A stretch of 64,000 nucleotides of DNA, taken from assembly GCA_903860975.1 (NCBI GenBank), contig CAIOSI010000027.1:1-64000 (forward strand), read 5' to 3'. The notes under the pieces were generated by a model. The model had not been told where the DNA came from. It did no database searches and saw only the letters and a program-made list of their open reading frames with translations. This document shows positions 13,182 through 58,151 of the stretch, piece by piece. Each line of letters begins with the position of its first letter. Positions within the stretch are counted from its first letter, which is position 1. The translations under genes and the position numbers were made by a program. This DNA comes from an uncultured Alphaproteobacteria bacterium. Its GTDB lineage: Bacteria; Pseudomonadota; Alphaproteobacteria; Caulobacterales; Caulobacteraceae.

Positions 13182-13195
13182 TGGAAACGTTTCTA
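13182..13195. promoter_or_regulatory. LacI-type operator, TGGAAACGTTTCTA
   Basis: One mismatch from the perfect palindrome TGGAAACGTTTCCA found four times in this window. It lies between the dehydratase/aldehyde dehydrogenase operon (minus) and fucU (plus), about 60-70 bp from both starts, so it can control both. Confidence 0.75.
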
Positions 13196-13253
13196 TGGCG
13201 CACGGGCGACGTCGTTTGCCCGGGACGCCCCCGACACGGGAGGCTGAGAAGCC

Positions 13254-13685
13254 ATGCTGAAGGGTATCGATCCGCGACTGGGGCCGGATCTCCTCGCCAT
13301 CCTGCGCGGCATGGGGCACGGCGACGAGATCGCGCTCGTGGACGCCAACTTTCCCGCCCAGGCGGTGGCGCGACGCCTCTGCCGCGCCGATGGGATCGAT
13401 GTGGTGGCCATGACGCGCGCGGTCGTCTCGCTGATGCCGCTCGACGATTTCGTCGCGGCCGCGGCCTTCTCGATGGCGGTGGTCGATGCGCCCTCGGAAA
13501 CGCCGCCCGTCGTCGCCGAACTCGGCGTGGTCCTGCGCGCGGCGGACTACCGGGGCGAGATCGTCGCCCTGGAACGCCACGCCTTCTATGAGCGCGCGCG
13601 CGGGGCCTTCGCCGTCGTCGCGACGGGCGAGCTGCGTCTCTACGGCAACGTGATCCTGATCAAGGGCGTGGTGCGGCCCAGCTGA
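13254..13685 (+). CDS. fucU: L-fucose mutarotase, RbsD/FucU family
   Basis: 143 residues, the normal length. It begins MLKGIDPRLGPDLLAILRGM followed by GHGDEIALVDANFPA, the FucU signature, with His22 (catalytic), Asp24 and Asp30. The C-terminal YGNVILIKGVV strand is also typical. FucU interconverts the alpha and beta anomers of L-fucose, supplying the anomer used by the first dehydrogenase. It is divergent from the UxaA-type operon and shares its operator. It is probably monocistronic, since the following gene is convergent; a GGCGGG/CCCGCC hairpin (13694-13709) follows the stop. Confidence 0.93.
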   Translation: MLKGIDPRLGPDLLAILRGMGHGDEIALVDANFPAQAVARRLCRADGIDVVAMTRAVVSLMPLDDFVAAAAFSMAVVDAPSETPPVVAELGVVLRAADYRGEIVALERHAFYERARGAFAVVATGELRLYGNVILIKGVVRPS

Positions 13686-13749
13686 GCTGGTGCGGCGGGC
13701 GGACCCGCCCATCCGGCGGCGGTAGCCCTCTGGAACGCCTCGGCCGATC

Positions 13750-15819
13750 CTACCAGATCCGCACGCGCTGGTCGGGGGCGACGTAGAGCCTGTCACCCGG
13801 CTTGACCCCGAAGGCGGCGTACCAGGCGTCGAGGTTCCGCACCGGGCCGTTGACCCGATACGGGTTCGGAGGGTGCGGGTTGCTGATCACCTGCTGGCGG
13901 ACCGCCTCGTCGCGAGCCTTGGCCCGCCAGGCCTGGGCCCAGCCCAGGAAGACGCGCTGGTCGCCCGTCAGGCCGTCGATGACCGGAGCAGGCTTTCCGT
14001 GCAGGGACGCGTGATAGGCGGCGAGGCCCAAGGTCAGGCCGCCCAGGTCGGCGAGGTTTTCGCCCATGGTCAGGTCGCCGTTCACGTGCAGGCCGGGGAA
14101 GGGTTCGTAGGCCGAGAACTGGGCGCCCAGCACCTTGGCGCGGGCCTCGAAGGTCTTGGCGTCGGCGGGCGTCCACCAGTCGCGCCGCTGCCCGGTCGAG
14201 TCGAACTTGCGGCCCTGGTCGTCGAAGCCGTGGGTGAGTTCGTGGCCGATCACCCCGCCGACCGCGCCGTAGTTGATCGCCGGGTCGGCGGAGGGGTCGA
14301 AGATCGGGGGCTGCAGGATCACGGCCGGGAAGACGATATCGATGAGGCCGCCGCTGTAGGCGTCGTTGGTCTGGGGCGTCATGGCCCAATCGCCGCGGTC
14401 CACAGGCCCGTTCAGGCGGTTCGCGTGGAAGGCCCAGTCGGCTTCCGCGGCCGCGCGCACATCGCCCACCAGGTCATCGTCGCGGATGACCACCTTCGAA
14501 TAGTCGCGAGGCTTGTCCGGGTAGCCGACCTTGACGTTGTAGGCGGCGAGCTTCTTGAGCGCCTCGGCCTTGGTGGCCGGGCTCATCCAGTCGAGGTTGC
14601 GGATCCGCGCGGCGTAGGCGGTCTTGATGTCCGCGACCAGGGCCTGGATCTTGGCCTTGGCGGCGGGGGGAAAATAGCGGGCGGTGTAGAGCTCGCCCAC
14701 CGCCCAGCCCAGGTTGCCGAACCGATCGAAGCGGCCGCCGGCCAGGTAGTCGCCGCCGCTCACCGCGTTGACGCCGCGCTTCCAGCGAACCCGCTGCTCG
14801 GCCTGGCCGGACAGGGTCTTCAGGCGCATCTCGAAGTGGGCGTCGGTGAAGGGCTTGGAAAGATAGGGCGCGGCGTTGTCCGCCACGGTGAACGCCAGCC
14901 AGGCCTGCAGGACGTCAACCGGGGTCTCGGCGAAGATGGTCGCGATCTTCGGGAAGGCGGTGTTTTGCGCCACCACCAGCTTGGCCGGAACGCCGAGGCC
15001 GGCCTGCGCCAGGAAGGCGCGCCAGGGAAAGCCCGGGGCGGCGGCTTCCAGCTGGCCCAGGGTGTAGGGATTGTAGGTGGCGTCGGCGTTGCGGTTCTGG
15101 ACCCCGGTCCAGCTCACCTCGGCGATCCTGGTCTCCAGCGCCACTATGGCGGCGGCCTTGCCGGCGGGGTCGGGCCAGCCTTCCAGGCGCAGCAGCTTTT
15201 CCGCATAGGCCTGGTAGGCGGCCTTCCTCTCGGCGAGAGCGGGCTTCAGGTAGGAGTCGCGGTCGCCCAGGCCCAGGCCCGCCTGGCCCAGGAAGATCGT
15301 GTAGTGGGCGGTGTCCTTGGAATCGACGCCGGGGTAGACGCCGAAGACCGATCCCTCGAAATCCTTCACATGGCGGCCCATCAGGGCGCCGATCTGGTCG
15401 TGGGTCGCGGCCGCGCGAATGGCGTCGAGCTCGGGCGCGATGGGTTTGGCGCCGGCCGCCTCGATGCGGCCCTCGTCCATGAAGGCCTTGTAGAAGGCGC
15501 CGACCTTGCCCCCGATGGTCTTGGGCTCATGACCGGCTTTGACGGCGCTCTCCTCCAGGATGGTGCGCAGCCGCGCCTCGGCCAGGTCGCTTTCATAGAA
15601 GCGCAGGGAAACGGCGGACCTGTCGGCGGGGATCGGCGTGCGGTCGAGCCAGGCGCCGTTGGCGTAGCGGAAGAAGTCGTCGCCCGGCCGGGTCTTCAGG
15701 TCGCGGGCGGTGAGGTCGAAGCCCCAGGCGCCGTACTTCAGCTTCGCAGGCTCATCGGCGCGAACCGCCCCTGCCGTGACGATCAGCGCGACGACGGCCG
15801 CTGCGGTAAGCCTCGACAT
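13750..15819 (-). CDS. M13-family metalloendopeptidase (neprilysin/PepO-like), exported
   Basis: 689 residues. A signal peptide (MSRLTAAAVVALIVTAGAVRA) precedes the M13 N-terminal domain (DDFFRYANGAWLDRTPIP). The zinc site is GVIGHELTHGFDDQG (HExxH near residue 525), and the third ligand is in GENLADLGGLTLG. It is expected to cut short peptides in the periplasm or outside the cell. It is divergent from an M19 dipeptidase gene and the two share a LacI-type operator at 15867, tying peptide breakdown to the same control as the sugar genes. Confidence 0.92.
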   Translation of the reverse strand: MSRLTAAAVVALIVTAGAVRADEPAKLKYGAWGFDLTARDLKTRPGDDFFRYANGAWLDRTPIPADRSAVSLRFYESDLAEARLRTILEESAVKAGHEPKTIGGKVGAFYKAFMDEGRIEAAGAKPIAPELDAIRAAATHDQIGALMGRHVKDFEGSVFGVYPGVDSKDTAHYTIFLGQAGLGLGDRDSYLKPALAERKAAYQAYAEKLLRLEGWPDPAGKAAAIVALETRIAEVSWTGVQNRNADATYNPYTLGQLEAAAPGFPWRAFLAQAGLGVPAKLVVAQNTAFPKIATIFAETPVDVLQAWLAFTVADNAAPYLSKPFTDAHFEMRLKTLSGQAEQRVRWKRGVNAVSGGDYLAGGRFDRFGNLGWAVGELYTARYFPPAAKAKIQALVADIKTAYAARIRNLDWMSPATKAEALKKLAAYNVKVGYPDKPRDYSKVVIRDDDLVGDVRAAAEADWAFHANRLNGPVDRGDWAMTPQTNDAYSGGLIDIVFPAVILQPPIFDPSADPAINYGAVGGVIGHELTHGFDDQGRKFDSTGQRRDWWTPADAKTFEARAKVLGAQFSAYEPFPGLHVNGDLTMGENLADLGGLTLGLAAYHASLHGKPAPVIDGLTGDQRVFLGWAQAWRAKARDEAVRQQVISNPHPPNPYRVNGPVRNLDAWYAAFGVKPGDRLYVAPDQRVRIW

Positions 15820-15866: not shown

Positions 15867-15880
15867 TGGAACCGTTTCCA
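15867..15880. promoter_or_regulatory. LacI-type operator, TGGAACCGTTTCCA
   Basis: One mismatch from the consensus palindrome. It lies 48 bp upstream of the M13 peptidase start (minus) and 115 bp upstream of the M19 dipeptidase start (plus). Confidence 0.72.
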
Positions 15881-15994
15881 ACTTGACGACCGCTGTCAAG
15901 AAAGCACGCCCCGCGCGGGCTGCTGACGCGGCGAATGTGCACACCGGGTTGCAGCCCATCGCAGGCTGAGCCCGAACCGAAACGGGGGCCTTCC

Positions 15995-17290
15995 ATGCGA
16001 AGACTGACCATCGCCTTGCTCACAGGAGCCGCCGTCGCGGTTCTTGCCACGGGCGCGCAAGCCTCGCCCTCGGACGCCGAGATCGCCGCCCGCGTCGCCA
16101 AGGTGCTGAAGACCACCCCGCTGATCGACGGCCACAACGACTTCCCCTGGGAGGTGCGCGAGCGCTTCGCCCAGAAGACCACGGGCTTCGATTTCAAGTC
16201 CGACCTGTCGCACCAGCCGCCGGTTCCGGGCGGCGAAGGGCAGGGCGGGCTGATGACCGACATCCCGCGCCTGCACTTAGGCGGCGTCGGCGGCCAGTTC
16301 TGGAGCGTCTACATCCCGGTCAGCGTCACCGGGCCGGCGGCCGTGCAGACCACCATCGAGCAGATCGACATCGTCAAGCGCCTGGCCGCCCGCTACCCGG
16401 CCGACCTCGGCATGGCCTATAGCGCCGACGATATCGTGCGCCTGCACAAGGAGGGCCGCGTGGCCTCCCTGATCGGGGTCGAGGGCGGCCATCAGATCGA
16501 CGATTCCATGGCGGTGCTGCGCGCCTACTATGCGCTCGGCGCGCGCTACATGACCCTGGCGCATTTCACCGACAACGACTTCGCGGACTCGGCCACCGAC
16601 GATCCGAAGCACCACGGCCTCTCGCCGTTCGGCAAGGCGGTGGTGGGCGAGATGAACCGGCTGGGGATGCTGGTGGATCTGAGCCACGTCTCGGCTGAGA
16701 CCATGCGCGCCGCGATCTCGGTCAGCCAGGCGCCGGTGATCTTCTCCCACTCCGGCGCGCGGGCGATCAGCGACCATCCGCGCAATGTGCCCGACGACGT
16801 CCTGGCCATGGTCGCGAAGAACCACGGCGTCGTGATGGCCGATTTCGCCACGGGCTACGTCTCCGACGCGCGGCGGCGATGGAACGCCGCCCAGGCGGAA
16901 GAGACGGCGCTCGAGGCCAGCCTCTTCGTGGGTCAGCCCGAGCGGCGCAAGGCGGCCATGGCCGGCTGGACCGCCGCCCACCCGATGCCGCGCGTGACGC
17001 TGGCCCAGGTGGCCGACCACATCGAGTACATCCGCAAGGTCTGCGGCGTCGACTGCGTGGGCCTGGGCGCCGACTTCGATGGCATGGGCGACACGCCCGA
17101 GGGTCTGGAAGGCGTGGACAAGTATCCGGCCCTGTTGGCGGAACTCGCCCGGCGCGGCTGGTCGGACGAGAATCTGGCGAAGGTCGCCGGCGGCAATCTG
17201 CTACGCGCGCTGCGCGAAGCCGAGGCCACGGCCAGGCGCCTGCAGGCCGTACCGCCCTCGGAGGCGACCATCGCCGAGCTGGACAAGTAG
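15995..17290 (+). CDS. Membrane dipeptidase, M19 family, exported
   Basis: 431 residues from the ATG giving MRRLTIALLTGAAVAVLATG, a clean signal peptide; an upstream in-frame ATG would add 20 unlikely residues. Metal and active-site motifs of renal-dipeptidase-type enzymes are present: DGHNDFPW (near 44), EGGHQIDDS, LAHFTDNDFADS, SHSGARAI and GLGADFDGMG. It hydrolyses dipeptides, often including D-residues. It is more canonical in sequence than the two tandem M19 paralogues at 34816-37257. The FAH-like gene follows closely. Confidence 0.9.
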   Translation: MRRLTIALLTGAAVAVLATGAQASPSDAEIAARVAKVLKTTPLIDGHNDFPWEVRERFAQKTTGFDFKSDLSHQPPVPGGEGQGGLMTDIPRLHLGGVGGQFWSVYIPVSVTGPAAVQTTIEQIDIVKRLAARYPADLGMAYSADDIVRLHKEGRVASLIGVEGGHQIDDSMAVLRAYYALGARYMTLAHFTDNDFADSATDDPKHHGLSPFGKAVVGEMNRLGMLVDLSHVSAETMRAAISVSQAPVIFSHSGARAISDHPRNVPDDVLAMVAKNHGVVMADFATGYVSDARRRWNAAQAEETALEASLFVGQPERRKAAMAGWTAAHPMPRVTLAQVADHIEYIRKVCGVDCVGLGADFDGMGDTPEGLEGVDKYPALLAELARRGWSDENLAKVAGGNLLRALREAEATARRLQAVPPSEATIAELDK

Positions 17291-18078: not shown

Positions 18079-18092
18079 TGGAAACGTTTCCA
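18079..18092. promoter_or_regulatory. LacI-type operator, perfect TGGAAACGTTTCCA
   Basis: Perfect 14-bp palindrome, 87 bp upstream of the start of the enolase-superfamily gene at 18179. Confidence 0.82.
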
Positions 18093-18178: not shown

Positions 18179-19351
18179 ATGAAGGACCTTCGCATCAAGC
18201 GACTGACCGTGCGGCAGTACAACTGGACGTTTCGCGAGATAGGGTCCGACTACAACGGCTTCAATCAGGTCTATCTCAAGGGCGCGACCTGCAACGAGAT
18301 TTGGTACGCGCTCACCATCGAGACCGAGGCCGGGATCACCGGCGAGTACATCGGCGCCGTGGGCGGCGTCTGGGCGGCCCAGGTCGCCATGGTGGCGCAC
18401 TACCTGATCGGCCGGAACGCCCTGGAGCGCGAGCTGATCTGGAACGATATCAAGCGCGCACTGCGCCAGATCGACGGCTACGGCCTCGCGCCCATCGACT
18501 GCGCGCTCTGGGACATCGCGGGCAAGGCCTATGGCGTGCCGGTCCACCAGCTCCTGGGCGGCTGGCGCAAAACGCTGCCCGCCTATGCTTCGACGCTCCA
18601 CGGGGACGAGAACGGCGGCCTCGATTCACCCGAGGCCTTCGGTGACTTCGCGGTGCAGTGCAAGGAGCTCGGCTATCCCGCCTTCAAGGTCCACGGCTGG
18701 GGCAATGGCCCCATCGAGCGCGAGGTCGCGACGGTCCTGGCGACGCGCAAGGCGGTCGGCGACCAGATGAACCTGATGCTCGACCCCGCCTGCGAATACA
18801 ACACATGGGGTGACGCCCTGCGCGTCGGCCGCGCCTGCGATGAGGCGAATTACTTCTGGTACGAGGACCCCTACAAGGACGGTGGCCATTCGGCCTTCGC
18901 GCACAAGAAGCTGCGCCAGTTCATCAAGACCCCGATCCTGATGGGCGAGCATATCCGCGGCATAGAGGTGAAGGTCGACGGGATCATCGCGGAAGGCACC
19001 GACTTCATCCGCGCCGGCATCCATTCCGAAGGCGGCATCACGGGGGTCATGAAGCTGGCCCATGTGGCGGAGGGCTTTGGTCTTGACGTCGAGCTGCATG
19101 GGCCCGGCGCGGCGACGCGCCAGTGCTTGGCGTCGATCCGTAACTCCAACTACTACGAACTCGGCCTCGTCCATCCCAAGGTGCCGGGCCGCCACGCCCA
19201 GGTCCCGATCTATGGCGACGCCTATTCGGATGACCTGGAGGCCGTCGACGCGAACGGCTGCGTGCCCGTCCCGGACGGCCCGGGCCTCGGCGTCACCATC
19301 AACTGGGATTGGCTGGCGAAGCATGAGACCGGAAAAGTCGTCTATGGCTGA
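18179..19351 (+). CDS. Enolase-superfamily sugar-acid dehydratase (mandelate racemase type)
   Basis: 390 residues with the two-domain enolase-superfamily layout. In the barrel: FKVHGWG (KxH, general base), LMLDPACEY (Asp metal ligand), WYEDPY (Glu), LMGEHIRG (Glu) and VELHGPG (His). These fit an acid-sugar dehydratase of the mandelate racemase group. It is clearly different from the RhmD-type (23967) and L-fuconate-type (29371) enzymes in this window, so the substrate is probably a third sugar acid. It starts the operon with the DUF885 peptidase downstream, behind a perfect LacI-type operator. Confidence 0.85.
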   Translation: MKDLRIKRLTVRQYNWTFREIGSDYNGFNQVYLKGATCNEIWYALTIETEAGITGEYIGAVGGVWAAQVAMVAHYLIGRNALERELIWNDIKRALRQIDGYGLAPIDCALWDIAGKAYGVPVHQLLGGWRKTLPAYASTLHGDENGGLDSPEAFGDFAVQCKELGYPAFKVHGWGNGPIEREVATVLATRKAVGDQMNLMLDPACEYNTWGDALRVGRACDEANYFWYEDPYKDGGHSAFAHKKLRQFIKTPILMGEHIRGIEVKVDGIIAEGTDFIRAGIHSEGGITGVMKLAHVAEGFGLDVELHGPGAATRQCLASIRNSNYYELGLVHPKVPGRHAQVPIYGDAYSDDLEAVDANGCVPVPDGPGLGVTINWDWLAKHETGKVVYG

Positions 19352-19369
19352 GGCGGGCGGGGCCGAGCG

Positions 19370-21256
19370 ATGCTCCTAGCGGCCCTTTTGCTGTCGGCCG
19401 CCGTGCTCGATGCGGGCAGCGGACAGGGCGGGGCCCATCAGCCTCCCGCGGCCGTCGCGCGGCCCACCGCGCCGTCCGCCAAGGCGGCCGAGGCCGAAAC
19501 CGCGCGGCTGAACGCGTGGTTCGATGCGCGCAATGACGAGACGCTCGCCCTCAGCCCGATGGCCCGGAGCGGACTTGGCGACAAGCGCGACTACGACAAG
19601 ATCGATGACATGTCCGAGGCGGCCCAGGACAGGTCGCTCGAATGGCGCCGCCGCACGGTCGAGGACCTGAAGGCCCACTTCAATCGCGCGAAGCTGACGC
19701 CGGATGGACAGCTGTCTTACGACCTCTGGATCGATCAGTACCAGCGCGCGGCGGAGGCGGCGAAGTTCCGCCGCAACGAATATATCTTCACCCAACAACA
19801 AGGGCCTCAGGCGTCCCTGGCCCAGTTCCTGATCTCCACCCACCGGGTCAGCGAAGCGTCGGACATGGACGCCTATGTCGCGCGGATCGGCGGCATTTCA
19901 CGCGCGCTCGGACAACTTCAGGCGCGGGCGAAGCTGAACGCGGAGGCCGGAAGCCGTCCGCCGCTGTTTGCCTATGACGGCGTCATCCAGCAGGCGCGGG
20001 CCCTGATCACCGGCGCACCCTTTGGCGGCGACGGCGACAGCCCGATCTGGGCCGACGCGAAGGCGAAAATCGACGCGCTCGCCAAGGCCGGCAAGATCGA
20101 TCAGCCGAGAGCCGAGACGCTAAAGGAAAGCACGAAAGCCGCGCTGCTGACGCAGTGGGGCCCAGCGTATCAAGGCCTCATCGACTGGCTCGAAGCCGAC
20201 AAGGTCAACGCCGACAAGATCGCCACCGGCGTCGGCAAGAATCCCAACGGCGCGGCCTATTTCGCCATGCGGCTGCGGAACATGACGACGACCGATCTGA
20301 CGCCGGAGCAGGTCCACCAGTTCGGGCTCAGTGAAGTCGCGCGCATCCACGCCGAGATGGCGGTGATCCAGCAGAAGGTCGGCTTCAAGGGGTCCCTGCA
20401 GGAGTTCTTCGCCTTCGTCCGTGAGAACCCGAAGTTCTACTATCCCAACACCGACGAAGGGCGTCAGGCCTACATCGACGCCGCGACCGCGGACCTCGAC
20501 GCCATGAAGGCGAAGCTGCCCGCCTATTTCGGAATCCTGCCCAAGGCGGACCTGATCGTGAAGCGGGTGGAGCCCTACCGTGAACAGGCTGGCGCGGTGC
20601 AGTTCTATGCCAACGGCACGGCGGACGGCTCACGGCCCGGCGTCTTCTACATGCATCTGATCGACATGAAGGCGATGCCGATCCCCCAGCTCGAGGTCGC
20701 CGCCTATCACGAGGGGATTCCGGGGCATCACATGCAGATCTCGATCGCCCAGGAACTCACCAACGTCCCGAAGTTCCGCTCGCGGCTGGTGTTCGCCGCC
20801 TTCCTGGAAGGCTGGGGCCTCTACGCCGAACAGCTCGCCAAGGAGATGGGCGCCTACCAGGACCCCTATTCGGACTTCGGGCGCCTGACCCTGGAAGAGT
20901 GGCGCGCAATCCGGTGCGTCCTGGACACCGGAATCCACGCGAAGGGTTGGACCGAAGAGCAGGCGGTCCAGTACATGCATGAGAACGCACCGCTCGCCGA
21001 TGCGCAGATCCGCACGGAGGTGAGGCGTTATATCGTTTCACCGGGGGTGGCCTCTTCCTACAAGATCGGCATGCGGAAGATCCTGGAGCTGCGCCAGAAG
21101 GCCAAGACCGAGCTCGGCGACAAGTTCGATATCCGCAAGTTTCACGATGTGGTGCTGGGCGGCGGCGCCTTGCCGCTCGATCTGCTCGAACGCCGGGTCG
21201 ACGAATGGATCGCAACGGAAAAGGCCGGCAAGAGCAACCGGGCCTCCGTCCACTAG
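19370..21256 (+). CDS. DUF885-family putative metallopeptidase, exported
   Basis: 628 residues beginning with a hydrophobic signal-like stretch (MLLAALLLSAAVLDAG). The DUF885 core carries the metal-site motif AAYHEGIPGHHMQ near residue 445, with LEGWGLYAEQLAKEMG about 45 residues later providing a further acidic ligand. DUF885 proteins are metallopeptidase-like and often exported in Caulobacterales and Sphingomonads; substrates are mostly unknown. It lies 18 bp behind the enolase-superfamily dehydratase gene, so a peptidase and a sugar-acid dehydratase are co-transcribed. Confidence 0.87.
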   Translation: MLLAALLLSAAVLDAGSGQGGAHQPPAAVARPTAPSAKAAEAETARLNAWFDARNDETLALSPMARSGLGDKRDYDKIDDMSEAAQDRSLEWRRRTVEDLKAHFNRAKLTPDGQLSYDLWIDQYQRAAEAAKFRRNEYIFTQQQGPQASLAQFLISTHRVSEASDMDAYVARIGGISRALGQLQARAKLNAEAGSRPPLFAYDGVIQQARALITGAPFGGDGDSPIWADAKAKIDALAKAGKIDQPRAETLKESTKAALLTQWGPAYQGLIDWLEADKVNADKIATGVGKNPNGAAYFAMRLRNMTTTDLTPEQVHQFGLSEVARIHAEMAVIQQKVGFKGSLQEFFAFVRENPKFYYPNTDEGRQAYIDAATADLDAMKAKLPAYFGILPKADLIVKRVEPYREQAGAVQFYANGTADGSRPGVFYMHLIDMKAMPIPQLEVAAYHEGIPGHHMQISIAQELTNVPKFRSRLVFAAFLEGWGLYAEQLAKEMGAYQDPYSDFGRLTLEEWRAIRCVLDTGIHAKGWTEEQAVQYMHENAPLADAQIRTEVRRYIVSPGVASSYKIGMRKILELRQKAKTELGDKFDIRKFHDVVLGGGALPLDLLERRVDEWIATEKAGKSNRASVH

Positions 21257-22258: not shown

Positions 22259-22335
22259 CGGCGGCAAAGCTCCCTGTCGCCCGGTTTCAGACGCGGCGCC
22301 GAAGGCCGCGCGTTTGCGCCGGTCAGATGCGATCT

Positions 22336-23951: not shown

Positions 23952-23966
23952 GAGAATGCGGGCTCG

Positions 23967-25151: not shown

Positions 25152-25370
25152 TCCCGCCCGAACTCCTCGTTTTTCCGCCCGTGCGGGCCCGGCGGGGACG
25201 GGCTGCCGCTTGGACAAGATTATCTTACAATCTGAGACAAAGAGTTAGACTGTGGGAATAAACGCGTCAATGTCGTGAGGCGACGGCGGGCGCTCCCTGT
25301 TTCCAGGCGCGGAGGCGGCGAACGCAGCGGGGCGGCTGGCGCCTTGACTCCGGGCGCCGTTCAGCAAGAA

Positions 25371-25384
25371 TGGAAACGTTTCCA
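25371..25384. promoter_or_regulatory. LacI-type operator, perfect TGGAAACGTTTCCA
   Basis: Perfect palindrome 58 bp upstream of the DapA-like gene (plus) and 220 bp upstream of rhmD (minus). Control of the plus-strand operon is likely; control of rhmD is possible. Confidence 0.82.
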
Positions 25385-26338: not shown

Positions 26339-26341
26339 CCG

Positions 26342-29356: not shown

Positions 29357-29370
29357 TGTGTGGGCCCTCC

Positions 29371-44367: not shown

Positions 44368-44388
44368 CGGTTGCAAGCCGAAGATGAG

Positions 44389-50792: not shown

Positions 50793-51632
50793 ATGCTCGA
50801 CGCCCATCAGCACTTCTGGGAAGTCGCCCGGGGCGACCACGAGTGGGTGTCGCCCGACTATCCCGCGCTCTTTGGCGACTTCGGGCCCAAGGAGCTCGCG
50901 CCCCTGATGACGGAGGCCGGCGTCACCCACACCGTCCTGGTCCAGGCCGCCGAGACGGAAGACGAGACCGACTATCTGCTGGGGATCGCGGACCGAACGG
51001 AGTTCATCCGAGGCGTCGTCGGCTGGCTGGATATGCTGGCGCCGAATTTTGGCGATCGGCTCGACCACTACCGCGCGAAGTCGAAGTGGGTCGGGCTGCG
51101 GCCGATGCTTCAGTCGCATGACCCGTCCCTGATCGCCGATCCGCGCTTCGGGCAGGCGCTAGAGCTGGTCGCGCAGCACAACGTCCCCTTCGACATCCTG
51201 ACCTTTCCGCGCCACCTGCCGGCGATGGTCGAGGCCCTGCGCGCCGCGCCCGGCGTGCACGGCATCGTCGACCACATCTCCAAGCCCGACATGACCGGCC
51301 CGCTCGACGCCGCATGGTGCGCGGGCATGGAAGCCCTTGCCGCGATGCCCGACATCCATTGCAAGATTTCCGGCCTGCCGACCGAGGCGGGCGCCGACTG
51401 GACCGCGGATCGTATCCGACCGTTCGTCGAATTCGTCGCCCGGGCCTTTGGCCCCGAGCGACTGGTCTTCGGATCCGACTGGCCGGTCTGCCGGCTCGCC
51501 GCGTCTTACGCCCAGGTCGTCGAATTGGCGAAGGACATCCTCGGCAATCTCTACGGGCCCGAGGACATGCGCGCGATCATGGAGACCAATGGCGTGGCGT
51601 TCTATCGGCTCAACGCGGCGGGCGCGCGATGA
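50793..51632 (+). CDS. Amidohydrolase-family lactonase (L-fucono/L-rhamnono-lactonase type)
   Basis: 279 residues, amidohydrolase-2 family. Metal site DAHQHFWE at the N-terminus, WVGLRPMLQ, DHISKPD on a central strand, KISGLPTEA and VFGSDWPVCRL near the end. This is the standard set of L-fuconolactonase and L-rhamnono-gamma-lactonase. It starts directly after the PLP enzyme (no gap) and its stop overlaps the next start. The second lactonase of the window. Confidence 0.88.
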   Translation: MLDAHQHFWEVARGDHEWVSPDYPALFGDFGPKELAPLMTEAGVTHTVLVQAAETEDETDYLLGIADRTEFIRGVVGWLDMLAPNFGDRLDHYRAKSKWVGLRPMLQSHDPSLIADPRFGQALELVAQHNVPFDILTFPRHLPAMVEALRAAPGVHGIVDHISKPDMTGPLDAAWCAGMEALAAMPDIHCKISGLPTEAGADWTADRIRPFVEFVARAFGPERLVFGSDWPVCRLAASYAQVVELAKDILGNLYGPEDMRAIMETNGVAFYRLNAAGAR

Positions 51633-52741
51633 GCCGGATCAACTACCTCACCCGCATCGAATTCGGTGAAGGCGAGATCGCGCGCTTGCCGGAATTCCTG
51701 GCGGGCCTCGGCGTGAAGCGGCCCCTGATCGCCACTGACAAAGGACTGGTCGCCAGTGGGCTGGTGGCCCGCGTCGGCGGTCTGATCGGACCGGGCGCCG
51801 TCGTCTTCGACGAGACGCCGGCCAACCCCACCGAAGAGGCCGTCGTCGCGGCGAAGCGGCTCTACGACGACGCCGGATGCGACGGGATCGTCGGCCTGGG
51901 CGGCGGGTCGTCTATGGACCTGGCCAAGGCCGTCCGCCTTCTGACGGGCCACGACGGGCCGCTGGAACACTACGCCGCCATCGCCGGCGGCGTCGGTCGG
52001 ATCCATGGCGACATCTGCCCCCTGATCGCCGTGCCCACCACCTCGGGCACCGGCTCGGAGGTCGGGCGCGCCGCGGTCATCGTCACGGCCGGTGGGCGCA
52101 AGCTCGGCATCATCTCCGACTTCATGTTCCCGAGCCTGGCGCTGTGCGATCCCGAGCTCACCTACGGTCTGCCGCCGCCGCTCACCGCGGCCACCGGCAT
52201 GGACGCCATCGCCCATTGCCTGGAGACCTTCATGGCGCCGGCCTTCAATCCGCCGGCGGAGGCGATCGCGCTGCATGGGCTGAGCTGCGGGTTCGGCGCC
52301 ATCCGGGCCGCCGTCGCCGACGGTGCGGACCGCACCGCCCGCCGCGAGATGATGGTGGCCGCGCTCGAGGGGGCGCTGGCATTCCAGAAGGGACTGGGCA
52401 CCGTCCACGCGCTCTCCCATCCGCTGGGCGCCATCCGTGAGCCCATCCTGCACCACGGCACGCTGAACGCCGTCCTGATGCCGGCGGTGCTGCGCTTCAA
52501 CCGCGACGCCATCGGGCCGAAGTGGGACGAACTCGCCCGGCGTCTGGGCGGCGCGCCCGACCAGGTGATCGCATCGCTGAACGCCGAGATCGGCATGCCT
52601 TCAGGCCTCCGCGCGATGGGGGTGACCGAGGCGATGATGGAGGCGGTGTCGCATGCGGCGCTTGAGGACCATTGCCACCTGACCAACCCGCGCCTCGCGA
52701 GTCGGAGCGACTACCTGGGGATACTGATGGACGCCGCATAG
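51629..52741 (+). CDS. Iron-containing alcohol dehydrogenase
   Basis: 370 residues, group III Fe-ADH: cofactor motif GGGSSMDLAKAV, PTTSGTGSEVG, and metal ligands in DAIAHCLE and HALSHPLGA followed by HHGTLNAVLMP. Substrates could be lactaldehyde (to propanediol), a short hydroxy-aldehyde or a hydroxy acid formed in deoxysugar breakdown. The start overlaps the lactonase stop, so it is part of the same pathway operon. Confidence 0.88.
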   Translation: MSRINYLTRIEFGEGEIARLPEFLAGLGVKRPLIATDKGLVASGLVARVGGLIGPGAVVFDETPANPTEEAVVAAKRLYDDAGCDGIVGLGGGSSMDLAKAVRLLTGHDGPLEHYAAIAGGVGRIHGDICPLIAVPTTSGTGSEVGRAAVIVTAGGRKLGIISDFMFPSLALCDPELTYGLPPPLTAATGMDAIAHCLETFMAPAFNPPAEAIALHGLSCGFGAIRAAVADGADRTARREMMVAALEGALAFQKGLGTVHALSHPLGAIREPILHHGTLNAVLMPAVLRFNRDAIGPKWDELARRLGGAPDQVIASLNAEIGMPSGLRAMGVTEAMMEAVSHAALEDHCHLTNPRLASRSDYLGILMDAA

Positions 52742-52766
52742 CCGATCGCGGCCAAGGGGAAGCACG

Positions 52767-53096
52767 ATGCAGAGAATGGGCATGGTCCTGGGCGTGAAGC
52801 CCGAGGGGATCGCGGAATACAAGCGCCTGCACGCCGAGGTCTGGCCGGACTTCCTGGCGCTGCTCTCCGATCACGGCATCACCAACTACAGCATCTTCCT
52901 GCGGGAGCCCGAGAACCTGCTGTTCGGGTATTGGGAGTACGTCGGCAGCGGTTTCGACGCCGACATGGGGATCATGGCCGCCAGCCCGCTGACCGAGCAG
53001 TGGAACCTGCTCTGCATGCCCCTGCAGCAGCCGCTGGCGAGCATCAAACCAGGGGAATGGTGGGCCCCGATGGAGGGCGTTTTCCACCTCGACTGA
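52767..53096 (+). CDS. rhaM: L-rhamnose mutarotase
   Basis: 109 residues with the RhaM motif set: MGMVLGVKPEGIAEYKRLHA (catalytic His about 22), VWPDFLALL, NYSIFLREPENLLFGYWEY, and a tryptophan-rich C-terminus (WWAPMEGVFHLD). It interconverts L-rhamnose anomers. It lies 25 bp behind the alcohol dehydrogenase gene. A second family member follows. Confidence 0.92.
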   Translation: MQRMGMVLGVKPEGIAEYKRLHAEVWPDFLALLSDHGITNYSIFLREPENLLFGYWEYVGSGFDADMGIMAASPLTEQWNLLCMPLQQPLASIKPGEWWAPMEGVFHLD

Positions 53097-53138
53097 GCCG
53101 TCACATGCCCAACGACATCGAAAGGGAAGGGAACACCA

Positions 53139-53453
53139 ATGGCGCACTACGCATGGATCCTCGAGGTCCGTCCGGGCTACGAGGAGGAATACAAGAAGCG
53201 GCACGACGAGATCTGGCCGGAGCTGTCGCAGGACATCCGCGCCGCCGGCATGCTGAACTACTCGATCTTCCGCTACGGGCTGACGCTGTTCGGCTATTTC
53301 GAGGCCGAGGACCTGGACGCCACCCTCGCCACACTTTCAAAGAGCGACGCCAACCGGCGCTGGGGCGAATACATGGCGCCGATCATGAAGTCCGAAATCG
53401 ACACCTCCCGGAATTTCCCCTTCCTGCTGCCGCTGCAATGGCATCAGGACTGA
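53139..53453 (+). CDS. L-rhamnose mutarotase-family protein, second copy
   Basis: 104 residues: WILEVRPGYEEEYKKRHDEI, WPEL, NYSIFRYGLTLFGYFE, RRWGEYMAPIM. The catalytic His (KRHDE) is kept, but the C-terminal tryptophan-rich motif differs from the first copy, and the two share only moderate similarity. A RhaM-like protein acts on L-fucose in C. jejuni, so this copy may serve another deoxyhexose. Last gene of the operon. Confidence 0.88.
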   Translation: MAHYAWILEVRPGYEEEYKKRHDEIWPELSQDIRAAGMLNYSIFRYGLTLFGYFEAEDLDATLATLSKSDANRRWGEYMAPIMKSEIDTSRNFPFLLPLQWHQD

Positions 53454-53511: not shown

Positions 53512-53550
53512 AGGTCTCGGCCAGGGGAGGAAGGCCGAGGGAGGCTTGGC

Positions 53551-54738
53551 CTAGCGGAACAGCTTCAGGTCGACCGCCTCGCCCATGACGCGGTAGCCGG
53601 CGTCGCTGGGGTGCAGCCAGTCCCCGGACTGCCATTCGGCCTTCATGGTCAGCGGGTCCGCCGGGTCACGGATCGCGGCGTCCAAGTCGATGAAGCCGTC
53701 CGCCTCCTTGTTCGAGCGGATCCAGGCGTTGATCGCGTCGCGGGTCTTGTAGGGCTCGACCGGATGGCTCCCCGGCCCGCCGAAGGGCAAGATCGTCGCC
53801 AGGATGACCTTGACGCCGTGGGCCTGCGCCCGGGCGATCATCTGCCGGTAGCCCGCGATCATCTGGGCCGCTGTAGGCCCACCTCGTCCGGCGATGTCGT
53901 TGACCCCCTCCAGCACGATGAGATGGGTCGCGCCCGGGATCGCGAGCACATCGCGGTCGAAGCGGCTGAGCGCACCTTCGCCCTGATAGGCGAGGTAGCC
54001 GTTGGAGAGTACGCGGTTGCCGCTGATGCCGGCGTTGACCACGGCGGCCTTGCCCTTCAGCCGCTCCGCCAGCACATCGGGCCAGCGCCGGTTGGCGTCC
54101 ACGGTCGAGCCGTGGCCGTCGGTGATGGAATCGCCGAATGCGACGATCACCGGCTGGGTGGCCGCGCCCTCCACCTCCACCGCGGTAAGGTAAGGCCGGA
54201 AGGTCGTGGTCGAGACCGGCGCAAAGGCGCCGCTCGTGTGGTCGCCCGGCGGCGAGAGCTGCACGGTCCCGAGGCCCAGCGGATGGCAGGTGCAGAGGCC
54301 GGCGTCGCCGGGCAGGTAGATGGCGACCCTCAGGCTCGCCATCGGCGCGGTCGCCAGGTCCACCGGATCGGAGACCAGCGGCGCATGTGGCAGGATCGTC
54401 GCCTTGCCCTCGCCGGCGAAGGTCACCACGCGGTCCGGGCCGGCCCTGCCGTCAGGGCCGATGACCGCGATCCGCACCGCGCCGATGTCCAGCGCCTTGG
54501 CGCCGTACTCATTGGAGAGGCGCAGACGCAGCCGGTGGCCGGCGGCGGTCAACCGCACGGTCTGGACAAGGGTCTGGTCCTTAAAGCTGGGCGTCGGGTT
54601 GAGGTTCGCCGGCGCGCCCGGCGGCGGCACGAAGGACGGCGTCGGCGGCGCGGCCCAGGTCGCGATCCAGGGCGCGGGGGCCGCGGCCGCCGGGGCGGCG
54701 AGCAAGAGCGCGGCCAGCGCCGCGGCGAATATCCACAT
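53551..54738 (-). CDS. SGNH/GDSL-family esterase, exported
   Basis: 395 residues from the ATG giving MWIFAAALAALLLAAPAAAA, a clear signal peptide; a much longer in-frame extension overlaps the upstream gene and is rejected. SGNH blocks: VAFGDSITDGHGS (nucleophile Ser), GISGNRVLS (Gly), LEGVNDI (Asn) and DWLHPSDAGY (catalytic Asp/His). Proteins of this group deacylate polysaccharides or other esters outside the cytoplasm. It lies four bases after the serine hydrolase gene, in the same operon. Confidence 0.9.
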   Translation of the reverse strand: MWIFAAALAALLLAAPAAAAPAPWIATWAAPPTPSFVPPPGAPANLNPTPSFKDQTLVQTVRLTAAGHRLRLRLSNEYGAKALDIGAVRIAVIGPDGRAGPDRVVTFAGEGKATILPHAPLVSDPVDLATAPMASLRVAIYLPGDAGLCTCHPLGLGTVQLSPPGDHTSGAFAPVSTTTFRPYLTAVEVEGAATQPVIVAFGDSITDGHGSTVDANRRWPDVLAERLKGKAAVVNAGISGNRVLSNGYLAYQGEGALSRFDRDVLAIPGATHLIVLEGVNDIAGRGGPTAAQMIAGYRQMIARAQAHGVKVILATILPFGGPGSHPVEPYKTRDAINAWIRSNKEADGFIDLDAAIRDPADPLTMKAEWQSGDWLHPSDAGYRVMGEAVDLKLFR

Positions 54739-54742
54739 GGCC

Positions 54743-56416
54743 CTAGGCGAACGCCACCCGCCAGCCGGGCGAACCGTTGTTGAGGATCCGCTGCGGGCGG
54801 CCGAAGAAGGGGGTGTCGAAACGGACCCGCTCCGGCGACCAGTCCGGGCCGGCGCGATAGTCGCCGTTGCCGATTGGGACCAGCTTCTCGCGGTTGCCGC
54901 GCCATAGCGCCCCGTCGCGCGCATAGATCCGCGTCCCGTCGTAGCGGCCGGCCAGCAGCGCGAGTTCGGGCGAGGCCTTCGGCTTGTAGCTCGCGGCGGG
55001 ATTGGCGGCGTATTCGACATCGCCGGCCCAGGCGCGCACGGCCTTGCCGCCCTCGACCTCGAAGAGGAGGCCGGTGATCTGGAACTCGGCGGCCTCGCAG
55101 GCGAACATGCCGCCGGCGGCGTCCTGCATCCGGCTGTCCGCGCCGCGATGGCGCAGGGTGAGTGTGTCGGCGCCCGGGATGACCTCGATCTTGTCGCCAT
55201 TGGCCGCAGTGTAGACACCCGCGTAGAGCTTCGGGTTCTCGACCACCGGACGCGGCGGCCGGGGCGCGGGCGGCGGTGCGCCGGCGTTCAGCGACCGCAG
55301 CAGATTGCAGGCGTGGAGGGAGACGTCCTTCGGGCGGTAGTTGGAGGCCGCATAGCCGATGTTGGTCGAGACGAAGGCCGCGACGCCGGCTTCGGGATCG
55401 ACGTGCAGCGAGGACACCACCGAGACCATGCCGCCGGTGTGGTGGAAGTAGCTCCGCCCATCGATCGGGTAGTGGCCGATGCCGTTGCCGTAGGTCACGC
55501 CCTTGCCGTCGGCCGGCGCGTCCGCGGGATTGGACAGGAACTTCACCGCGCTCGCGTCGCTGATGACGTCCGAGCCCTTGCCCTGGGCGAGCGCGAGCAG
55601 GAAGCGCAGGAACTTCGCCATGTCGGCGGCGGTCGCCGCGTTGGAGCCGGCGGCGTTGTCGACGTCGCCCCAGGCCGCCGGCGCGACCGGACTTGGCCGC
55701 AGGGTCATGCGGTCGGTGACATAGGGCAGGTAGCCCACTGGATAGCGGTGACGGTCGGTGTTGCGGATCGCGCCGACGGAATCCTTCATGCCGAGCTTGT
55801 CGAACACGCGCGCCTTGACCGCGTCTTCGAAGGGCCGGCCGTCATGTTCGGCGATGATCAGGCCCAGCAGGGCGTAGCCGATGTTGCAGTAGTTCCAGTG
55901 GGTTCCCGGCGTGTAGCTGGACCACAGGCCGCCCAGCTCCGAGACATAGGGCGCGATGTTCGGCATGCCGGAGGTGTGGTTGAGCAGGTGCTGCAGGCGG
56001 ATGCCTTCGCCGTTCGTCACCTTGATGCCGGGCAGGGCCTTGAGGAACGGCGTGTCGGGCGAGAGCTTGCCCTCGTCGAACATCGACCACAGCGTCAGCG
56101 CCACCATCATCTTGGTGATCGAGCCGACCTGCCACAGGTGGTCGGGCCCGACCGGGATCTTCTTGTCGATGTCGGCCCAGCCGGTCCGGACATAGCCCGT
56201 GAAGCCCTGCCGATCGACCACGGCGATGGTCATCCCCGGCAGACCCCAGTTGGCACGGTGCTGCTCCGCGTAGGCCTCAAGGGCCTTGAGCATCGCGTCG
56301 TGGCCGGCCCCGCCGCCCGACCTGTTCGTCGCGGCGAGGGCGGGGCCCGCGTCCGTCGCCAAGGCGGCGGCCAGGGTGGCCGTCACGCCGATCATGTTTC
56401 TACGACTGATGGACAA
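54743..56416 (-). CDS. Beta-lactamase-fold serine hydrolase, exported
   Basis: 557 residues. N-terminus MSISRRNMIGVTATLAAALA has twin Arg and a hydrophobic core, so Tat export is possible. Active-site motifs of class C/PBP-type hydrolases: SxxK as GSITKM, YxN as YCNIG, and HTGG in place of KTG. A C-terminal domain of about 170 residues (after 390) is beta-rich. Such enzymes are esterases or D-amino-acid peptidases, which fits the peptide theme. Preceded by a perfect LacI-type palindrome. Confidence 0.88.
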   Translation of the reverse strand: MSISRRNMIGVTATLAAALATDAGPALAATNRSGGGAGHDAMLKALEAYAEQHRANWGLPGMTIAVVDRQGFTGYVRTGWADIDKKIPVGPDHLWQVGSITKMMVALTLWSMFDEGKLSPDTPFLKALPGIKVTNGEGIRLQHLLNHTSGMPNIAPYVSELGGLWSSYTPGTHWNYCNIGYALLGLIIAEHDGRPFEDAVKARVFDKLGMKDSVGAIRNTDRHRYPVGYLPYVTDRMTLRPSPVAPAAWGDVDNAAGSNAATAADMAKFLRFLLALAQGKGSDVISDASAVKFLSNPADAPADGKGVTYGNGIGHYPIDGRSYFHHTGGMVSVVSSLHVDPEAGVAAFVSTNIGYAASNYRPKDVSLHACNLLRSLNAGAPPPAPRPPRPVVENPKLYAGVYTAANGDKIEVIPGADTLTLRHRGADSRMQDAAGGMFACEAAEFQITGLLFEVEGGKAVRAWAGDVEYAANPAASYKPKASPELALLAGRYDGTRIYARDGALWRGNREKLVPIGNGDYRAGPDWSPERVRFDTPFFGRPQRILNNGSPGWRVAFA

Positions 56417-56489: not shown

Positions 56490-56503
56490 TGGAAACGTTT
56501 CCA
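56490..56503. promoter_or_regulatory. LacI-type operator, perfect TGGAAACGTTTCCA
   Basis: Perfect palindrome 74 bp upstream of the serine hydrolase start (minus), in the 180-bp gap before the next gene, whose 3' end faces it. Confidence 0.82.
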
Positions 56504-56596
56504 CTTTCGGAAGGCGGACGTCCGATGTCAAGAGCGAGCTGCCGGGCTTGCCAAGGGTCGCCGTCAGGGCTGCGGGCCGAAGCTGTAGCTGGCGGC

Positions 56597-58036
56597 CTAT
56601 CCCGGGATCGCGGCCGACTGCGCCTGGGCGACGTACTGTTCGACCCGGTAGGGCAGGATCACGCCGTCCTTCAGCGCGCGCGCGGCGGCCGCCTTCACGC
56701 GGTTCACATAGTCCTGATGGCTCGGATAGAGGCGTCTCAACTGGTCGGCGGTGAACGGGAAGGTCTGTCCCAGCCACGGCGAGTCCTTCGAGCTTCCGAG
56801 GGTCTGTGCGATGGGGACGTCCATCTCGGGCAGACGCACGCCGCCCACCGCATTGCCGTACTGGTCCCGTTTGATCGCCGCTGAGGCATCTGCGTTTTCG
56901 AACTCGATCCTGGGCTGGATCGGCGGCGGCGCGCCGCCGTTGATCCAGCGGTGAACATGGCGGATCGCAGCGTCGCAGGTTGGGACCCACAGGACGTCGC
57001 TGGTGTGAAGCGGCGGCCCGTCGTCGGCGATGCTGACGCCGTCGCGATCTGTGATGCGCTTGATCCGCGCTTCCTGTTCCGTGCCGCCGTGGGAGGCCCC
57101 GGCGATTTCCCAGTAGCGGAACCTGTCGGTGTCGGGTTGCCGCACGGCCCGGTAGGCGGTGACCTCGGTCTCAGAATTCAGCCCGAAGACCTTGGCGGAC
57201 AGGTCGTCCCGGATCTTCGTCTGCGGCGCGGACAAGGCGGCCGAAGTCTTGGCCGAGGCGTCCACCCAGGGCGCCGAGCGGCCGGCGAACACCAGGGGCA
57301 TCAGCGCATCGAAGACGTTCTCGGTCTTCTGGACGCCGTTGATGTAGCTGACCAGGCGATAGCCGGACTGGGACGCGCCGATCGCGATCAGCTTGCGGAC
57401 CTTGAGGCCACCCATCGGATCCACCTTGCCGGTCCGGTGCGGCCCGACCGCGCGCGCGCCTTGGGTGAAGATGTCGTAGGAGAGAGAGTCCCCGGCAATC
57501 GAAAGCCTTCCGTAGCGCGCGGGATCCCATTGCACCAAGCCCCTGCCGGGCGGCAGCGGCGGGTGTAGCGCAGGGTCGTAACCGTGGACGCCGACGCGTT
57601 GGGCGGACACCGACACCCAGGCCAACCCGGCCTCGTACAGGCCCCTGGAATCCGCGCAGGCGATGTCATACCCAGCGCTGACGTTGATCCATTCGACGAG
57701 GACCGTCCCGTTGAATTTCGCGGGGTCGACAGGGCGGCGGACCAGCAGCCGCGTGCGATAGGGTTTCGCGCCGGCCTCCGCGACCTTGAAGCGGCCATCC
57801 GCCGGAATCTCCCCGACCAGGGCAAAGGCGCTGGCCACACCCTCCATGAAGTATTCTTCCTCGACGTAGCCGACGGCCGAGATGTCGCCGAGGTAGGCGG
57901 AAAACGGCCGGCCGTGCGCGCCGCCGGTGATCGGGCCGGTGACCCCGGGGCCGGACCCCGCCGGAACGGCGCCGCCGCTGGTCGCGCTCATCGCCACCGC
58001 GGCCGTACCTGCGATGATCTCGCGCCTGGAATTCAT
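56597..58036 (-). CDS. Alpha/beta hydrolase domain protein, exported, large
   Basis: 480 residues from the ATG giving MNSRREIIAGTAAVAMSATS, with GGGAGTGAG about ten bases upstream; an earlier start runs through the operator. RR and a hydrophobic stretch suggest Tat-type export. Family features: FNGTVLVEWINVSAGYD, GLAWVSVSAQRVGVHGYD, IGASQSGYRLVSYIN (nucleophile Ser), WEIAGASHGG (His). The group is known as an alpha/beta hydrolase domain of unclear substrate. It is divergent from the aldo/keto reductase gene with a perfect LacI-type palindrome between them. Confidence 0.82.
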   Translation of the reverse strand: MNSRREIIAGTAAVAMSATSGGAVPAGSGPGVTGPITGGAHGRPFSAYLGDISAVGYVEEEYFMEGVASAFALVGEIPADGRFKVAEAGAKPYRTRLLVRRPVDPAKFNGTVLVEWINVSAGYDIACADSRGLYEAGLAWVSVSAQRVGVHGYDPALHPPLPPGRGLVQWDPARYGRLSIAGDSLSYDIFTQGARAVGPHRTGKVDPMGGLKVRKLIAIGASQSGYRLVSYINGVQKTENVFDALMPLVFAGRSAPWVDASAKTSAALSAPQTKIRDDLSAKVFGLNSETEVTAYRAVRQPDTDRFRYWEIAGASHGGTEQEARIKRITDRDGVSIADDGPPLHTSDVLWVPTCDAAIRHVHRWINGGAPPPIQPRIEFENADASAAIKRDQYGNAVGGVRLPEMDVPIAQTLGSSKDSPWLGQTFPFTADQLRRLYPSHQDYVNRVKAAAARALKDGVILPYRVEQYVAQAQSAAIPG

Positions 58037-58137
58037 CGGACTCACTCCCGGCTGAGGTTGGGCGTGGGCGAGGGGGCGTCGATAAGGTATCCGGCAGGGG
58101 GCTCGCGCCTTGACAGGAGGCGACATTGCGCCAAATC

Positions 58138-58151
58138 TGGAAACGTTTCCA
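58138..58151. promoter_or_regulatory. LacI-type operator, perfect TGGAAACGTTTCCA
   Basis: Perfect palindrome between the alpha/beta hydrolase (minus, about 100 bp) and the aldo/keto reductase (plus, about 80 bp); it can control both. Confidence 0.83.

Follow-up and report, generated by a model that had tools for sequence, protein, structure and literature searches.

The first 64,000 bases (the window) of a 113,109-base contig (C27) from an uncultured alphaproteobacterium of the Caulobacteraceae, whose 3.83 Mb genome is assembled in 53 contigs, carry repeated copies of a 14-bp palindrome, TGGAAACGTTTCCA. We consider it most probable (about 0.85) that this palindrome is the operator of the LacI-family regulator encoded at 61806-62822 on the minus strand, which would repress about ten transcription units of a catabolic gene island and be released by a deoxy-sugar or its acid. 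We read the word as an operator because it is confined to one region in two genomes, is conserved above its flanks, lies on core promoters and stands before LacI genes in five further genomes. The second of the two genomes is a 4.3 Mb metagenome-assembled genome (MAG), SZAS-8, which appears to belong to the same genus as the host. Positions are those of C27, and thus also of the window.

A rescan of the window reproduced the nine positions and mismatch counts of the original prediction, which had described a LacI-type palindrome recurring between genes. Exact copies of TGGAAACGTTTCCA start at 18079, 25371, 56490 and 58138, one-mismatch copies at 13182, 15867, 37308 and 45637, and a two-mismatch copy at 40823, with a further two-mismatch match at 36381. 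With up to three mismatches allowed, the window holds 14 matches, against a mean of 1.31 and a maximum of 4 in 100 dinucleotide shuffles. By the gene calls, eight of these nine positions are intergenic; the ninth, 58138, falls within the 5' portion of the open reading frame (ORF) 56597-58186. The conserved part of this gene in SZAS-8 starts 65 bases past the site, and we take the overlap for a mechanical ORF extension, the true start probably lying downstream. A tenth site, TGGAAACGATACCA, lies at C27:64087, 87 bases outside the window. It falls inside the mechanical ORF 62912-64201, and is taken as non-coding because SZAS-8 has a stop codon between the site and the likely gene start (C27:64024 or 64018). 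From there to the right end of the contig there is no further match with up to three mismatches. A position weight matrix (PWM) limits the motif information to 14 bp with a symmetric core, and the central C and G are invariant in all 18 sites of the two genomes. The claim that LacI dimers bind palindromes with a central CG agrees with the available text of a survey of LacI regulons (PMC4052901), where even palindromes with central CG are the norm for LacI operators (1251 and 1173 of 1303).

Several other matches were not accepted as sites. Those at 24420, 33768, 36381 and 41237 lie inside genes and are conserved in SZAS-8 at 10-13 of 14 positions, and a PWM match at 44100 is weaker and inside the TonB receptor gene. 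The three-mismatch element GGAAACGATTTCC at 37286, weighed as a possible partner for cooperative LacI binding because it lies 22 bp from the site at 37308 (22 bp being a preferred distance between LacI sites in the accessible part of PMC4052901), is conserved at only 10 of 14 positions and was rejected.

A scan of the whole genome, as the original prediction had proposed, shows that the sites do cluster here. All eight matches with no or one mismatch fall on C27, which makes up 2.95% of the genome. With up to two mismatches allowed the total rises to 15, and the reversed pattern reaches 11, so that the two-mismatch matches alone are near background; of these seven, three are on C27 (36381, which is intragenic, 40823 and 64087) and four are on other contigs. 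The prediction would have been refuted by a motif equally frequent in unrelated promoters, and this is not what is seen: outside the contig there are these four two-mismatch matches, all inside predicted ORFs. SZAS-8 has ten matches at up to two mismatches versus one for the reversed control. Four exact, two one-mismatch and two of the four two-mismatch sites lie on a 51.8 kb contig together with lacI, and the other two two-mismatch matches lie on other contigs, inside predicted ORFs.

This SZAS-8 contig aligns to C27:18047-67161 over 49 kb at ~80-88% DNA identity with gene order kept; the alignment has a gap of 1.2 kb where the GDSL gene lies (53547-54741). The palindromes at 18079, 25371, 40823, 45637, 58138 and 64087 are identical at 14/14 bases and stand at the same positions, while their aligned flanks are identical at 46-59 of 80 bases, and the site at 56490, aligned on its own, is also identical. 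The site at 37308 agrees at 12/14 bases, the two genomes having exchanged its end-base mismatch. With intergenic limits drawn by hand from the gene calls, the seven mapped sites keep 96 of 98 columns versus 1319 of 1833 other aligned intergenic columns, and six of the seven are wholly identical versus 45 of 1132 other intergenic 14-mers. Even the bases by which the sites at 40823, 45637 and 64087 deviate from the exact word are retained in SZAS-8.

The placement of the sites relative to promoters also fits a repressor, if TTGAC is taken as the -35 element. Each of the four exact sites, in both genomes, has a TTGAC beginning 27-28 bp ahead of the palindrome: in the own genome, 28 bp upstream of 18079-18092, before the enolase-superfamily and DUF885 genes; 27 bp upstream on the plus strand of 25371-25384, before a DapA-like, aldo-keto reductase (AKR) and lactonase unit (+); at 28 bp from 56490-56503, before a beta-lactamase-fold gene (-) with the GDSL gene downstream; and 28 bp upstream on the plus strand of 58138-58151, before the genes for an AKR and a family-5 solute-binding protein (SBP5) (+) and at the start of an alpha/beta hydrolase gene (-). 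The offset is 19 bp at 15867-15880 (TGGAACCGTTTCCA, between M13 (-) and M19 (+), found in the own genome only, the TTGAC facing M13) and upstream of 45637-45650 (TGGAAACGGTTCCA, before the DppB-led operon (+)), and 10 bp at 37308-37321 (AGGAAACGTTTCCA, before the M19/M19/tricorn operon (-), which the TTGAC faces). TTGAC is thus found within 8-30 bp at seven of the ten own sites, as would be expected of operators at target-gene promoters; the corresponding shares are 3.4% for random positions and 2.7% for nearby offsets. By promoter consensus, a palindrome at this distance of 27-28 bp would cover the end of the -10 element and the start site, where a repressor would be expected to sit.

The protein encoded at 61806-62822 has the domains of a LacI-family regulator, with an N-terminal helix-turn-helix (HTH; VAASSVSRVIS; PF00356, 51.6 bits versus a cut-off of 27) and a C-terminal periplasmic-binding-protein-like effector domain (PF13377, 102 bits versus 26.5). 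The 18 named NCBIfam families of LacI regulators listed for it are all below cut-off, the best being NF047341 RbsR (195 versus 382). Its gene appears to be the second of an operon headed by site 64087, sharing a transcript with a BD-FAE esterase gene upstream (62912-63994, -), whose start is probably at C27:64024 or 64018, ~65 bp from the site; an alpha/beta hydrolase gene (60859-61749, -; PF00561) lies downstream of lacI. Because the conserved site 64087 heads the lacI operon, lacI would control itself. The SZAS-8 orthologue, at 87% identity, is the only one returned from genome contigs. Among the matches listed from 100 relatives, the best apart from the own gene is at 35% identity. At E 1e-60, the protein was found in the own genome only among 398 genomes of the order, in the own genome plus one 39% homologue among 385 of the class, and in SZAS-8 only among 198 of SZAS-8's family, these samples being drawn from larger groups. 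No site with up to two mismatches occurs in the 19 kb surroundings of the 39% homologue. Five plasmid records carry homologues, all below 60% identity, and among the best 120 of 2428 matches in metagenomes and MAGs, which are available as proteins only, homologues reach 50-89% identity, with one named Hyphomonadaceae bacterium at 74%. The LacI at 61806 is the best candidate binder, as it is found together with the sites and its own operon is preceded by a conserved one.

Outside these two genomes, the word itself is rare. Its exact form occurs in 4 of 390 genomes of the family versus 0 of 390 for the reversed control, with four copies in the own genome, four in SZAS-8, two in genome G1184 and one, inside an ORF, in G392. 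One of the G1184 copies (C288; L075:6459-10140) stands between a LacI gene (HTH VAVSTVSRALG; 32.5% identical to the island LacI) and a divergent long gene at 6459-8972, which from its N-terminus we take to encode a phosphotransferase system (PTS) protein; the second copy sits where a gene begins, at its 5' end. Of 385 genomes sampled from the class, ten have the exact word and four the reversed control. Nine of the ten are other genomes with a single copy each, and in four of these nine, all from other families, the copy is directly upstream of a LacI gene (G629 in stretch L079, G780 in L083, G802 in L084 and G725 in L085). The adjoining LacI proteins have the HTHs VSVGSVSRALN in the congeners G725 and G802, LSIATVSRVL in G629 and CGVATVSRVL in G780. 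In these four further settings outside the island the word looks like a LacI-type operator, and the single copies are probably autoregulatory LacI operators with the same word. Its presence beside other LacI genes bears on the class of the regulator more than on which protein binds here.

Other binders, and chance, were weighed as well. That the palindrome is instead the operator of the IclR-family protein encoded at 37466-38386 (-) is very improbable, in spite of this gene lying in the island and being equally conserved (76% identity in SZAS-8). The E. coli IclR box is TGGAAATnATTTCCA-like, and the imperfect element at 37286, next to the IclR gene, resembles it. However, this element is the one kept at only 10/14, the word has the even, CG-centred form usual for LacI, and it is found directly before LacI genes in G1184, G725, G802, G629 and G780. 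In the one of these five stretches that was searched for it (20 kb of G1184), the island IclR has no tblastn match at 1e-8. The IclR promoter region instead carries a different conserved near-palindrome, AGTCCCACTTTGTGGACT (38397-38437). A further element, TGTGGGAATW, at 25251-25260 and 30710-30719, stands before the L-rhamnonate and L-fuconate dehydratase operons and is conserved in SZAS-8; allowing one mismatch gives three matches versus 2.32 expected, so the two exact copies could be chance. Together, TGTGGGAATW and AGTCCCACTTTGTGGACT could possibly represent a second regulatory layer, under IclR. We regard it as very improbable that another LacI-type protein of the genome binds the palindromes as part of a wider regulon. 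Two other genes with a LacI HTH do exist, on contigs C17 and C12, and LacI proteins with varied helices adjoin the word elsewhere, but no site with up to one mismatch occurs off C27 and none with up to two on C17 or C12. Finally, an artefact of chance or sequence composition is almost certainly not the explanation: the near-background number of two-mismatch matches (15 in all versus 11) would fit it, but the exact and one-mismatch sites exceed the shuffles, are confined to the same region in two genomes, occur in 4/390 versus 0/390 family genomes and are conserved.

Some observations do weigh against the assignment of the palindromes to LacI 61806 and of all island genes to the palindromes. 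Not every site has the promoter geometry described above: at 13182-13195 (TGGAAACGTTTCTA, between the UxaA/GarD-like gene (-) and fucU (+), own genome only) there is no TTGAC within 60 bp, 64087 also lacks one nearby, and at 40823-40836 (TGCAACCGTTTCCA, before the TonB receptor gene (+)) a TTGACA lies on the far side, 8 bp beyond the end of the palindrome on the plus strand. The sites at 13182 and 15867 have no counterpart in SZAS-8, as the SZAS-8 block begins to their right, and the footprint and -35 counts of the two genomes are not independent, because a single close pair of island genomes was read. The PWM, itself built from the sites that it finds, also gives the intragenic 36381 and 44100 at ~14 bits, versus at least 20.7 bits for the ten sites. 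Five of the nine other class genomes with the word have no LacI gene adjoining it, which implies that a lone site can be chance; the copies in G463, G749 and G642 are in predicted ORFs, that in G647 has no gene call over it, and that in G578 is at the start of a presumably oxygenase-like gene and also inside an opposing ORF. The helices of the two LacI paralogues (VSKKTVSR and VSTKTVSR) differ from that of the island LacI, and this counts only weakly against the paralogues because the LacI proteins beside the word vary at the same place (VAVST, VSVGS, LSIAT, CGVAT). Finally, the unit at 28313-31514, with the L-fuconate dehydratase and short-chain dehydrogenase/reductase (SDR) genes, has no palindrome in the PWM scan. 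The claim that one regulator controls all of the genes thus stands in part: the word behaves as an operator and LacI is the best candidate for it, and the fuconate unit is left outside.

Under the mechanism that we favor, a LacI dimer would, without inducer, occupy the approximately ten copies and block the promoters, because the palindrome overlies the spacer, the -10 element or the start region; in the case of 40823 it lies just upstream of the -35 element. The effector that releases LacI would be a deoxy-sugar or the corresponding acid, with the oxidative routes for L-rhamnose or L-fucose as its likeliest source. The island would then be expressed, including uptake through the TonB receptor and the Dpp/SBP5 system, peptidases, esterases, aldo-keto reductases and lactonases, along with L-rhamnonate dehydratase, a Route-III-type SDR and hydrolase yielding pyruvate and lactate, and the divergently encoded pyruvate dehydrogenase, with lacI controlling itself via site 64087. 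Binding by LacI 61806, repression, the transcription units, the effector and the substrate are what we infer here from sequence.

If the transcription units are right, the regulon would comprise ~40 genes under ten operators. At its left end, the unit at 10138-13140 (-) encodes an aldehyde dehydrogenase (ALDH, 10138-11571) and a UxaA/galactarate dehydratase-family protein (11581-13140; 383 bits, below the galactarate dehydratase cut-off of 731), followed by a RbsD/FucU-family gene, fucU (13254-13685, +; PF05025; the nearest model is the L-fucose mutarotase NF011949, 116 bits versus a cut-off of 141), a peptidase M13 gene (13750-15819, -) and a peptidase M19 gene (15935-17290, +) with a small ORF in the same unit. 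The enolase-superfamily (MR/MLE) and DUF885 proteins are encoded at 18179-21256 (+). The operon at 21278-25217 (-), for an alpha/beta hydrolase, an SDR, a fumarylacetoacetate hydrolase-family protein (FAH) and L-rhamnonate dehydratase, is divergent from site 25371, ~150 bp off, and is perhaps also under its control. Its L-rhamnonate dehydratase is a firm sugar anchor (715.9 bits versus a cut-off of 393), and its FAH, which resembles 2,4-didehydro-3-deoxy-L-rhamnonate hydrolase, falls just short of the cut-off (481 versus 500 bits). On the other side of the site, 25442-28306 (+) encodes a DapA-family enzyme, an AKR whose nearest solved structures are L-galactose dehydrogenases, and an L-fuconolactonase-like amidohydrolase below cut-off. 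The siteless unit comprises an alpha/beta hydrolase and L-fuconate dehydratase (-) and an SDR (+), the dehydratase being the second firm sugar anchor, with solved relatives at E ~1e-163.

Further to the right, 31522-37281 (-) encodes a tricorn-type protease and two M19 dipeptidases (34816-37281), which are close paralogues (77% identical). DgaE/SelA-like pyridoxal phosphate (PLP) enzymes, well below family cut-offs and conserved in SZAS-8, are encoded at 38520-39944 (-) and 49584-50792 (+). A 173-aa frame at 40142-40663 (-) has no Pfam or NCBIfam match and is 80% identical in SZAS-8. The TonB receptor shares a unit (41029-45563, +) with a GguC/AraD1-family protein (44472-45563), which has no Pfam match and an NCBIfam score of 453 bits versus a cut-off of 340. 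The long unit at 45740-53453 (+) encodes a DppBCDF-type ABC importer, the second DgaE-like enzyme, an L-fuconolactonase-like protein, an iron-containing alcohol dehydrogenase (Fe-ADH) and two RhaM mutarotases. It is followed by the GDSL lipase and beta-lactamase-fold hydrolase (53551-56416, -), the GDSL DNA being absent at this place in SZAS-8, and by the alpha/beta hydrolase (PF20091; 56597-58186, -) that overlaps site 58138. The AKR and SBP5 are encoded at 58192-60816 (+). The nearest solved relatives of SBP5 bind heme, peptide and nickel, with AgaA also listed, which makes "peptide" uptake uncertain. Its homologues include Phenylobacterium sp. at 85% and a Hyphomonadaceae bacterium at 83%, and partial ones in Xanthomonadales (73%) and Devosia (67%). 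Divergent from the lacI operon across site 64087 are genes for a pyruvate dehydrogenase E1-like protein, a distant relative of homodimeric AceE (190 bits, below the aceE cut-off of 860), and an E2 protein (510 versus 445), at C27:64213-67940 (L016:4213-7940). FucU, the UxaA-like, DgaE-like and lactonase proteins are below their family cut-offs and the remaining names are family-level. No glycosidase was seen among the genes annotated in the island.

To the right of the window, a tyrosine-type integrase gene (PF00589; C27:71763-72905, -) lies just upstream of a gene at C27:72935-73960 (+), the pair spanning L016:11763-13960, that we take, from its N-terminus, to be the tRNA-dihydrouridine synthase A gene dusA. 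The available part of PMC4482086 describes dusA as a known insertion site of genomic islands. No exact repeat of at least 18 bp is shared between this integrase/dusA end and the part of the contig lying further left, and the window contains no tRNA gene and no Rfam family at gathering score. At the left end of the contig, a HipA-like gene (426-2005, -) with a small frame (1754-2005) just upstream has a toxin-antitoxin-like arrangement.

Whether these genes form one functional system, as was originally claimed, is a separate question. Co-regulation of the island genes is likely. The kept synteny speaks for the claim; the siteless fuconate unit, the IclR gene within the region, the TGTGGGAATW element before both sugar-acid dehydratase operons and the separate occurrence of the modules in relatives do not. 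Among 65 relatives, a close fuconate dehydratase (E 1e-120) occurs in four and a close M19 (E 1e-100) in nine, both counts including the own genome, which is the only one of the 65 with both; SZAS-8, outside this sample, has both as well. We examined neighborhoods of ~20 kb (~10 kb on either side) for all three other fuconate loci and four of the eight other M19 loci. At the fuconate loci (G064, G068 and G076) there is a cluster of sugar genes with no relative of an island peptidase beside it, and at the M19 loci (G063, G067, G075 and G083) an M19 relative stands without further genes of the island. The word is matched once in these neighborhoods, with two mismatches, in G076. The modules thus live apart in the relatives examined. 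It is quite conceivable, at somewhat below even odds, that the sites are real and their genes co-regulated, and that several unrelated catabolic modules came to share one switch by recent patching. This would fit the separate sugar and M19 loci, the absence of the 13182 and 15867 units from the SZAS-8 block and the integrase beside the DusA-like gene at the right end, as in a mosaic island. On the other hand, 49 kb of synteny is kept between two species at ~80-88% DNA identity. In addition, nine pairs of LacI and SBP5 homologues, with LacI identity down to 59%, come from assemblies with a same-sized longest contig in each pair (2130877, 900639, 40604, 40598, 20986, 13072, 11934, 10448 and 9595), a coincidence that suggests linkage of LacI to the SBP5 "peptide" binding protein.

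A more specific and clearly tentative proposal is that the island is a utilisation locus, under one LacI and ten operators, dedicated to one class of compounds that join a 6-deoxy-sugar (L-rhamnose, L-fucose or a relative) to amino acids or ester-linked groups, although that all the genes share one substrate is no more than a guess. Such a locus would be equipped with an outer-membrane receptor, peptidases and esterases, a family-5 importer, DgaE-like lyases, an oxidative pathway for the sugar and a pyruvate dehydrogenase. If true, it would be to carbohydrate-and-peptide compounds what a polysaccharide utilisation locus is to polysaccharides.

The cre box of CcpA resembles the word. CcpA of Bacillus is also the nearest solved structure to the island LacI by sequence (3oqo, E 2.7e-42), but it is a global, HPr-dependent regulator, whereas the island LacI would be a local one. 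The local sugar regulons of LacI proteins (Ravcheev et al. 2014, PMC4052901), as far as described in the available text, are alike in the HTH and periplasmic-binding-like domains, the even CG-centered palindrome, the sugar catabolic targets, sites mostly before start codons and probable autoregulation. In that text, 93% of LacI regulons have at most 20 genes, 31% and 38% have one and two operons, and a "global" regulon has more than 15 genes and at least seven operons in several pathways. With ~ten operators and ~40 genes, the predicted units reach this global size, yet they lie within 51 kb; the targets sit together in a single island and might belong to one pathway, against the several pathways of the global definition. 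LacI-family control of L-rhamnose-related genes is known for RhaR (Actinomycetales), RhiR (Rhizobiales, Erwinia) and RhmR (Chloroflexus), but the routes in the accessible portion of PMC3870299 use an isomerase, kinase and aldolase or rhamnogalacturonide uptake, whereas the island has an oxidative route (dehydratase, SDR, FAH) together with peptidases, a distinction drawn from those descriptions. A likeness in pathway exists to the non-phosphorylative Route III for L-rhamnose and L-fucose (PMC6336799, available text), in which a dehydrogenase and a hydrolase turn L-2-keto-3-deoxyrhamnonate or L-2-keto-3-deoxyfuconate (L-KDR/L-KDF) into pyruvate and lactate, and whose genes are often found next to those for ABC transporters and a regulator, as here. 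Unlike those clusters, the island combines the pathway with peptidases, esterases, a TonB receptor and DgaE-like enzymes, all with an operator in common.

We found no mention of the word as an exact string in literature whose logos, supplements and subscription journals were outside the search, no description of the motif or regulon in literature searched without RegPrecise and most subscription journals, and no literature on Phenylobacterium with LacI and a genomic island. The regulatory principle is ordinary; our best reading is that the regulon is new, unusually large and physically clustered, with an unusual mix of targets. If binding is confirmed, ~40 genes could be assigned to one regulator and to an inducer class open to testing, among them members of vaguely described families such as DUF885, PF20091, the DgaE-like PLP enzymes and the M19 paralogues. 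If true, this would be a LacI regulon of global size within one 51-kb island, tying peptidases to deoxy-sugar oxidation and pointing to a substrate not yet assigned.

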